A DNA stretch of 64,000 nt from Actinomycetales bacterium (GTDB lineage: Bacteria > Actinomycetota > Actinomycetes > Actinomycetales > Microbacteriaceae), in the NCBI GenBank assembly GCA_015655415.1, contig JAATFB010000066.1:1-64000 (forward strand). Reading direction: 5' to 3'. Under the pieces are notes generated by a model, which was given only the letters and a program-made list of their open reading frames with translations, was not told the origin of the DNA and made no database searches. A program made the position numbers and the translations under genes. Every line of letters begins with the position of its first letter. Position 1 is the stretch's first letter. Below are positions 38,448-41,041 of this stretch, piece after piece.

Positions 38448-38486
38448 AGTATGCCCGTTTCCCGCCAACTGTTCAACCGGTTGACC
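38448..38486 (-). promoter_or_regulatory. Predicted ABC-operon promoter (TTGAAC-N17-CATACT) with overlapping CAACCGGTTG operator
   Basis: Minus-strand reading TTGGTCAACCGGTTGAACAGTTGGCGGGAAACGGGCATACT; palindrome core at 38474-38483. Confidence 0.65.
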
Positions 38487-38521
38487 AAAATATCCTCTCG
38501 GAGCCGCTCCTGCGGGCCTCT

Positions 38522-40051
38522 TCACGTCTCCGAGACGAACGAGAACCAGCGCGCTCCGGCGGGAGTGAGCTCCCCCTCCGTCGTGACGAGGCCCCGCGGC
38601 CCGGTCGCCTCGAACCACGACGCGCCGAGCACGCCCTCGATCGAGACGGCCGCGACGGAGCGCTCGAACCAGGACGCCATGTACTCGGTCCCGATGAGCG
38701 GGTCGATGCCGCGCTGCGCCTCGACGCGCGAGCCCGGGGACGGCCTTGTCGCGACGGCGTTGAACCGCCGGCGCAGGGTCACCGGTCCGATCACGACGGG
38801 GATGCCGTCGGCGAGCTCGACGGCATCCTCCGCCACCAGCCTCTGCATGTCGAGGCTCTCCTCGACGTGCTCGAGGTCCGTGGCGTGCATCATCGGCGTC
38901 ATGCTGAAGGCGACGAGATCCGCGTCACGGGGCAGCCGCTCGATCGTGCGATTGAGCTCGGTGAAGTGCGCCCGGGTGCCGGCGACGAGGCACGGCGGCT
39001 CCGAGCGGCGGTCACGCCAACGCCTGAGGGCGTCCCACCCAGACGACTCCGTGACATGGGTCCGCGGGTCGAAGACGCCGACACGTGCCAGGCGCAGCGC
39101 TCGGGCGGCGGCGAGCCCCGCCTCCAGGTCATCGGCGCCGGCCGCGACCACGCGCAGGTCGACGGGCACTCCGAGGGCGTCGGCCTCGAGCGAGGCTCGC
39201 GCGATGATCTCGTCCCATGACGCGCGATCCGCGGTCAGCTCCACCAGAAGCGGCCCGGCGTGCGGCGCCGGTGGCGGGAGCGCTCCGTGCACATGGCGCC
39301 CGCTGGAGGTTCCGATCTTGATCGGAGACCGCGCCGCCGATCCCGAGCGACCACGCGTCTCCAGAGGGACGCCGCCGAGGGCCGGCTCAGCGCCTTGCTC
39401 CACGGTGATCCTGGCCGACTGCCGGATCGGCTCCACGGGTCCGACCCGGTAGGGGAACGGGAGTGCGAGGGGCCTGTTGTAGACCTTGAACGAGGCGTCG
39501 GTCCAGTTCCGCTGGTCCTCCATCTCGAAGACGTCGCCCTCCAACGCCACGTCGACCACGAGGCCGTCGACGCCGTAGCGGAGGGCGCTGATGTCCCGAG
39601 CGGGCTGATGCGGTGCGATCCGCGACGGCAACGCGGTCGTGTCCCGGGTCCCGTCCGGATGAACGACCTCGAGCGGCGAGCCCGCGAGTGCCGGTGAGAG
39701 CAGCACGACGATGCCGAGCCGGTTGACCTCCAGGTCGCGCACGGGCCTGATCTCCGCCGTCACGGTGCAGGACTCCTCGAGCCGGATCTCGAGGCGGGCG
39801 CAGGCGACCGGGGCACCGTCGTCGTCGTCGATGTCGATGCGGAACCGCACCACGCCATCGTCGATCTCGGCTGGGCCGGCCCGGTGCGGGAAGGTGTTCC
39901 AGTCCTCGTCCCTGGCCACCACCCGGATGGCGCGGACCACCTGGACTCCATCGTGCGCGATGTGCCCGATCTCCCCCAGGGAGAGCGAGACCCGCCACCT
40001 GTGGCGCTCGAACGTAGCCGCGGTCACTTCGCGGGGCTCCGGCTTCACCAT
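38522..40051 (-). CDS. apnL: D-apionate lactonase-like protein
   Basis: 510-codon three-segment protein; family recognised from length, layout and operon partners (ApnO-, OiaC- and LerK-like genes), not from an alignment. Confidence 0.68.
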   Translation of the reverse strand: MVKPEPREVTAATFERHRWRVSLSLGEIGHIAHDGVQVVRAIRVVARDEDWNTFPHRAGPAEIDDGVVRFRIDIDDDDGAPVACARLEIRLEESCTVTAEIRPVRDLEVNRLGIVVLLSPALAGSPLEVVHPDGTRDTTALPSRIAPHQPARDISALRYGVDGLVVDVALEGDVFEMEDQRNWTDASFKVYNRPLALPFPYRVGPVEPIRQSARITVEQGAEPALGGVPLETRGRSGSAARSPIKIGTSSGRHVHGALPPPAPHAGPLLVELTADRASWDEIIARASLEADALGVPVDLRVVAAGADDLEAGLAAARALRLARVGVFDPRTHVTESSGWDALRRWRDRRSEPPCLVAGTRAHFTELNRTIERLPRDADLVAFSMTPMMHATDLEHVEESLDMQRLVAEDAVELADGIPVVIGPVTLRRRFNAVATRPSPGSRVEAQRGIDPLIGTEYMASWFERSVAAVSIEGVLGASWFEATGPRGLVTTEGELTPAGARWFSFVSET

Positions 40052-40944
40052 GTCGTGCTCGCGTCCCTCACGGTCGTGGCGACTCGGTAGATCGAGGTCG
40101 ATGCCGCGATGAACAGCGTCGTCCCGTCATCTCCGCCGAAGCAGAGGTTCCCCACCAACTCGGGAACCGGCAGCCTGCCGATCGTGGCGCCATCGGGGGC
40201 GATAACGATGACACCGCGCTCCGAGCTCGTCCACAGGTTCCCCTGCGTGTCGACCTTGATGCCGTCCGGGACGCCGTCAGCTGCGGTGAGCTCTGCGAAC
40301 ACCCGGGAGTTCTTGCAGCGGACGCCGTCCGCCACGTCGTAGGCCCGGATCCATCGGTTCCCGACACCGGGCGGCTTGCGGATGCACGAGGAATCCGCCA
40401 CGTAGAGCGTCCGCTTGTCGGGGGAGAACGCCAGGCCGTTGGGCTCCTCGACATCGAGGACGACCGGGCGGATGCCGTTTGTGACCGGGTCGAAGCGGAA
40501 CACGGCGTGGTCCCCGTACTCGCGATATCCGGCGTGCCCCTCACGCGGCTCGATGATCCCATACGGCGGGTCGCTGAACCAGAAGGTGGCGTCCGGGGCG
40601 AGCACGACATCGTTCGGCGAGTTGAGCCGCGCGTCGCCCCACCTGTCCACGATGGGGGTGACGAGGCCCCCACGGTCGCGCTCGATGCGCCTGCGCCCGT
40701 GCGAGCATTGGACGACGCTCCCGTCGACATCGAGGGCGCGCCCGTTGGCGTATCCGACGCGCTCCGCGTAGACGGATGTGGCGCCTGTGCCCGCATGCCA
40801 CTGCATGATCCTGTTCCGGGGGATGTCGGACCACCGCAGTGTCCGCGTTTCAGGTATCCAGAGCGGTCCTTCGGCCCAGGTGCTTCCCGTGGCGAGGCGC
40901 TCGATCTCCGTCGGCTCGGGTACCAGGTCGGTCAAGCGAGGCAA
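40045..40944 (-). CDS. SMP-30/gluconolactonase/LRE family lactonase
   Basis: STWAEGPLWIPETRTLRWSDIPRNRIMQW; SPNDVVLAPDATFWFSDPPYGI; EPNGLAFSPDKRTLYVADS; GVPDGIKVDTQGNLW; probable TTG start. Confidence 0.92.
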   Translation of the reverse strand: MPRLTDLVPEPTEIERLATGSTWAEGPLWIPETRTLRWSDIPRNRIMQWHAGTGATSVYAERVGYANGRALDVDGSVVQCSHGRRRIERDRGGLVTPIVDRWGDARLNSPNDVVLAPDATFWFSDPPYGIIEPREGHAGYREYGDHAVFRFDPVTNGIRPVVLDVEEPNGLAFSPDKRTLYVADSSCIRKPPGVGNRWIRAYDVADGVRCKNSRVFAELTAADGVPDGIKVDTQGNLWTSSERGVIVIAPDGATIGRLPVPELVGNLCFGGDDGTTLFIAASTSIYRVATTVRDASTTW

Positions 40945-41003
40945 CGCGATTCTCCTTCGAACGATGTGACGGTGGGGTCAAGCATCATCATTCCAGTCAA
41001 TTG

Positions 41004-41041
41004 GTCAACCGGTTGACAAGTTTGGATGAACGGCGCAGGAT
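41004..41041 (+). promoter_or_regulatory. Predicted promoter of the MFS-kinase-isomerase operon (TTGACA-N17-CAGGAT) with overlapping GTCAACCGGTTGAC operator
   Basis: Perfect 14-bp palindrome 41004-41017; -35 at 41013-41018, -10 at 41036-41041. Confidence 0.68.

Follow-up and report, generated by a model that had tools for sequence, protein, structure and literature searches.

We analysed two closely similar intergenic sites in the window, the whole 64-kb stretch of DNA studied here, together with the gene cluster in which they lie. Judged by their sequence and its conservation in many Actinobacteria, both sites are real operators, and the regulator that uses them is almost certainly the GntR-family protein (FCD type, FadR subfamily) encoded at 33049–33804 on the plus strand. 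The gntR gene stands at the far end of an ATP-binding cassette (ABC) operon and is convergent with it. This minus-strand operon begins with a sugar substrate-binding protein gene (37307–38389), whose product weakly matches rhamnose and xylose binding proteins, and continues through 33832–37282 with open reading frames for an ATPase (35816–37282) and two permeases (34839–35819 and 33832–34842). Two further minus-strand genes encode an ApnL-like apionolactonase (38522–40051; Pfam PF25837 and PF25838) and an SMP-30/gluconolactonase-like lactonase (40045–40944; Pfam SGL), the latter overlapping the start of apnL. On the plus strand, a galactonate-transporter-like MFS gene (41103–42494; Pfam MFS_1; TIGR00893 at 284 bits, below its cutoff of 395) opens a catabolic operon. 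Its remaining genes (42491–47203), assigned with Pfam, encode a LerK-like DAK-type kinase (42491–44212), RpiB (44231–44710), a TIM-like isomerase (44710–45504), an OiaC-like xylose-isomerase-like TIM barrel (45501–46319) and an ApnO-like dehydrogenase (46316–47203). This gene order is kept beside gntR and the operator in relatives, for which 80 related neighbourhoods were compared.

Homologues of the ApnL, ApnO, OiaC, LerK, LerI and DerI types are all present. The ribose-5-phosphate isomerase model scores above its own cutoff, while the ApnL model (188 bits, cutoff 750) and the DerI model score below theirs. The assignment of the locus to apionate-type degradation is accordingly a label taken from homology, and some of the models involved do not reach their cutoffs. 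Of 400 genomes of the family Microbacteriaceae, 63 contain ApnL-like genes.

The shared core of the two sites, CAACCGGTTG, occurs exactly twice in the window (38474–38483 and 41006–41015), at the two places named in the preliminary description of this DNA; the mean over 100 shuffles of the window was 0.01, and two copies were never reached. Both copies are intergenic. The first lies 85–100 bp upstream of the substrate-binding protein gene (start 38389, minus strand), and the second lies between the starts of the SMP-30 gene (40944, minus strand) and the MFS gene (41103, plus strand). The wider palindrome GTCAACCGGTTGAC is perfect at 41004–41017 and has one mismatch at 38472–38485. In the organism's own genome (3.16 Mb in 105 contigs, 87.6% complete), the core 10-mer is not unique, with six copies. 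None of the remaining four is flanked by GTC/GAC. Each can be translated as Asn-Arg-Leu within an open frame (frames judged by eye); they were set aside as ordinary, since they are readable as coding DNA. A degenerate pattern, YYGGTNNACCRR, was no commoner than its reversed control (69 versus 69), and the exact 16-mer WWYYGGTCAACCGGTT was therefore chosen for the genome tests. It has two matches in the genome, both at these sites. The proposed two-promoter regulon is supported in this genome.

The symmetry of the operators was determined by comparison with relatives. When 60 non-redundant upstream regions from related loci were searched by expectation-maximisation, with no symmetry assumed, the motif AATTGGTCAACCGGTTGACA (also written AATTGGTCAACCGGTTGAC) emerged in ~90% of regions; the log-likelihood ratio was 861 for the real input and 82 for shuffled input. 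The operator is conserved in 54 of the 60 regions, and all 54 strong sites point the same way, toward the metabolic operon. A right-hand GAC is frequent before operons of the MFS/LerK/OiaC type, where it is mainly -35 sequence. At 33 other unique sites there is no conservation of this GAC (G 52%, A 12%, C 30%), whereas the left-hand WWYY and the right-hand GGTT are conserved; these sites were picked by the pattern GGTCAACC, and only columns outside it are informative. Sites upstream of ApnL were taken by pattern because de novo motif search there found only conserved coding DNA. Sites of the form TTGGTTGACCAA, without a CG-centred core, occur in loci L041 and L044, and the distant orthologues L169 and L171 have operators of the form AATTGGT-C-ACCAATT. 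From the loss of GAC away from the -35, the TTGGTTGACCAA sites and the L169/L171 form, it follows that the operator is, at sequence level, AAYYGGT-CA-ACCGGTT, a TTGGT-N2-ACC site as in the FadR subfamily, and that its axis lies 4 bp upstream of that of the CG-centred palindrome. The earlier reading therefore identified real operators but placed their symmetry wrongly, at CG within CAACC/GGTTG. Since ACCGGT, the half-site, is a palindrome in its own right, the two symmetries overlap.

Both sites are exact 16-mer matches. Operator 1, TTTTGGT-CA-ACCGGTT, occupies 38475–38490 on the minus strand (axis 38483/38482) and faces the ABC operon; operator 2, AATTGGT-CA-ACCGGTT, occupies 40999–41014 on the plus strand (axis 41006/41007) and faces the MFS operon. 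Locus L044, from another genus, has the window's ABC operon, homologous to that described here, and its lactonase genes. It carries operators before the MFS gene, between the SMP-30 and ApnL genes, and before the homologous substrate-binding protein gene, the last in the same place as operator 1.

The CG-centred appearance would suit a LacI-family repressor bound to a GTCAACC/GGTTGAC palindrome. Such operators share with these sites an even, CG-centred look and the distance to the start codon, and 40999–41022 forms an inverted repeat, 83% complementary, centred at CG. This repeat looks extended because a weak third half-site lies beyond the -35. Against a LacI operator stand the loss of the right-hand GAC at sites not serving an MFS/LerK/OiaC-type promoter and the TTGGTTGACCAA sites lacking the CG-centred core: the CG-centred flanks are not conserved. 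Linkage points the same way, as a seed search found no LacI gene in the window. In a scan of 85,488 bacterial species for the 19-mer AATTGGTCAACCGGTTGAC, made with no regulator assumed and giving at least 80 loci, nearly all in Actinomycetota, a LacI gene lay nearby in 3 of 80 loci among the matches listed. A LacI regulator was rejected on linkage and flank conservation, and we consider it very improbable.

By contrast with LacI, GntR follows the operator closely. Among the same 80 listed loci, 63 have a GntR orthologue on the fetched stretch, and 73 have apionate-type genes and/or GntR. In the 400 family genomes, 74 of which have a GntR orthologue at the threshold of 213 bits or more, 55 carry both the 16-mer and GntR, 3 the operator only, 19 GntR only and 323 neither. 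GntR is thus present in 55 of 58 operator genomes (Fisher p = 2.7e-47, a value exaggerated by the non-independence of related genomes), and the pattern nevertheless spans many genera. GntR also co-occurs with ApnL (p = 2.2e-44). In most relatives the operator lies between gntR and a divergently oriented MFS, kinase or OiaC gene, and the site also stands beside gntR in orthologous loci outside the family (L162–L164, L166, L167 and L172). Of the two regulators named in the preliminary description, the GntR protein at 33049 is therefore retained and LacI is not.

The protein itself has the domains expected of the FadR subfamily, a GntR winged helix (PF00392, 68.3 bits, cutoff 27) and an FCD domain (PF07729, 97.6 bits, cutoff 24.3). 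Residues R51, R61, S62, R65 and G82, at recognition positions, are invariant in 145 sequences. R51 and R61, matched by eye from a published table to FadR Arg-35 and Arg-45 (PMC4494728), correspond to the arginines at helix–turn–helix positions 28 and 38 that contact G. The lineage with N1-spaced operators carries the changes G60A, A63S and E66G, a correlation drawn from two sequences. These are the GntR orthologues L260 and L261, which combine a changed recognition helix with the AATTGGT-C-ACCAATT operators of L169 and L171.

Sites of the FadR subfamily consist of TKGT and ACMA boxes with a GT–AC spacing of 3 or 2 (PMC4494728). TTGGT-CA-ACCGG has a spacing of 2, and its TGGT box fits. The closest parallels are in the UxuR, PrpR and MdcY group, which likewise combines a GntR winged helix and FCD domain with a palindromic TTGGT-N2-ACC near a catabolic promoter, often divergent from the regulator gene (PMC4494728); the present operator differs in its asymmetric, invariant CA centre and in GG for AA in the downstream half-site. 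Against the models of the named regulators UxuR, NanR, LldR and PdhR, the protein scores far below every curated NCBIfam cutoff (UxuR, 79.6 of 442 bits; NanR, 150 of 260). NanR of Escherichia coli, the best-scoring model, is also an FCD repressor with GGT boxes, of which several dimers occupy neighbouring copies. Unlike in NanR, which binds GGTATA repeats at sialic acid genes, the boxes here are inverted and may share half-sites.

Several observations weigh against assigning both operators to this GntR protein. The downstream box, ACCG, is one base off ACMA, with ACCA also found in relatives. The exact 16-mer is missing from 19 of the 74 GntR genomes, several of the inspected loci carrying variants, and three operator genomes (G048, G154 and G176) have no GntR above 213 bits; in G176 a GntR at 182 bits lies beside the site. 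The window's gntR adjoins neither operator, unlike that of most relatives, and has no operator upstream (best position weight matrix score -15.7). For this last reason autoregulation of gntR, which looks likely from its arrangement in relatives, is unsupported in the window. Separately, G048 (L253) and G154 (L254) contain the 16-mer on fetched stretches in which no GntR or apionate genes were recognised.

Each operator overlaps a -35 hexamer that is separated by 17 bases from a -10 hexamer in a promoter-like arrangement: TTGAAC-N17-CATACT on the minus strand toward the ABC operon (38471–38476 and 38448–38453) and TTGACA-N17-CAGGAT on the plus strand toward the MFS operon (41013–41018 and 41036–41041). 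The sequence thus agrees with the original proposal that both sites sit on -35 elements in one register, hexamers and spacers included. A plain consensus promoter and terminator scan of 38300–41150 gave no match, since both -10 hexamers, CATACT and CAGGAT, fit the consensus weakly, and the promoter claim therefore rests on conservation in relatives. Relatives including L045 and L051 also have CATACT at this spacing, and CAGGAT, whose spacing class is that of the relatives, occurs again in L102. Where TTGAC follows the operator (33 relatives), 29 loci have a -10-like hexamer with A2/T6 (xAxxxT) at a spacing of 17 or 18; other spacings give only 0–4 such hexamers. In many of the remaining loci the operator fills the 17-bp spacer between TTGCAA-like and CAAACT-like hexamers. 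This second architecture, with the operator wholly between the hexamers and off the -35, is seen in L053, L146, L150, L156, L126 and L130.

As the operator lies inside the core promoter in either register, steric repression is favoured, and occlusion of RNA polymerase would be expected at both promoters of the window. Operator 2 may plausibly also control the divergent lactonase (SMP-30/apnL) operon, because it is a single operator roughly midway in the 158-bp gap between the divergent genes, and single sites in this position usually serve both sides in the FadR subfamily (PMC4494728). No convincing minus-strand promoter toward the lactonase operon was recognised in that gap.

In the mechanism that we propose, a GntR dimer would bind AAYYGGT-CA-ACCGGTT with one wing on each GGT/ACC half-site. 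The end of the downstream half-site, GGTTGA, would form part of the -35 of the ABC promoter (near 38450–38490) and of the MFS–kinase–isomerase promoter (near 41000–41041). Since half-site bases would double as the -35, the bound protein would exclude RNA polymerase. A pathway metabolite, probably a sugar acid or a downstream product, would then bind in the FCD domain and cause release of GntR. We assign a probability of roughly 0.88 to both sites being operators of the FadR-subfamily GntR at 33049–33804 that overlap the -35, exclude polymerase and are freed by a metabolite. Some FadR-subfamily proteins both activate and repress, and GntR could on this general ground be an activator of both promoters. 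Relatives have the operator either over the -35 or within the spacer between -35 and -10, as would be expected for blocking polymerase, and activation appears improbable.

The third half-site allows an elaboration with two GntR dimers per site, bound cooperatively to overlapping operators. These would have the central half-site ACCGGT in common and axes separated by 8 bp, which would make the CG symmetry functional after all. At operator 2 this half-site is ACAAGTT (compare ACCAATT) at 41016–41022 on the plus strand, 8 bp from the main axis; at operator 1 it is AACAGTT. Together with the core, the box at operator 2 produces the CG-centred pseudo-palindrome of the preliminary description. The T of this box at 41021 lies beyond the -35 hexamer, and 34 of 51 relatives share it (binomial p = 2e-13 against local background, a value that is too small given the relatedness of the genomes). 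Full three-box sites, AATTGGCTGACCGGTTGACCAATT, exist in one genus (L055 and L116), FadR-subfamily motifs can have extra half-sites 7–12 nt from the centre (PMC4494728), and NanR provides a case of dimers assembling on GGTATA repeats (PMC8012715). The third box is, however, weak at both operators of the window, and its signal is partly -35 sequence. We regard paired dimers as possible but rather unlikely.

A regulator and a precise operator can thus be assigned to a branched-sugar-acid (apionate-type) regulon across many Actinomycetes. Our search of the open-access literature found no paper giving this operator sequence or the regulation of the apionate pathway, and nothing relevant for apionate or apiose with GntR. 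More tentatively, at somewhat less than even odds, this would be an Actinobacteria-wide apionate regulon, undescribed before, with the operator in the core promoter in two registers and with half-sites that overlap so as to accommodate a second dimer; one lineage would have changed its spacing from N2 to N1 together with residues of the recognition helix. The operator offers a sequence tag for finding apionate-type loci and a candidate ready-made inducible promoter. The registers and operator variants that occur naturally in these promoters make up a series in which to test how a GntR repressor blocks transcription.

Elsewhere in the window, a perfect 12-base inverted repeat, CAATTGTGGACT-N4-AGTCCACAATTG, lies at 48303–48330, flanked by an SDR gene on the minus strand and a TetR gene on the plus strand, and is probably the TetR operator.
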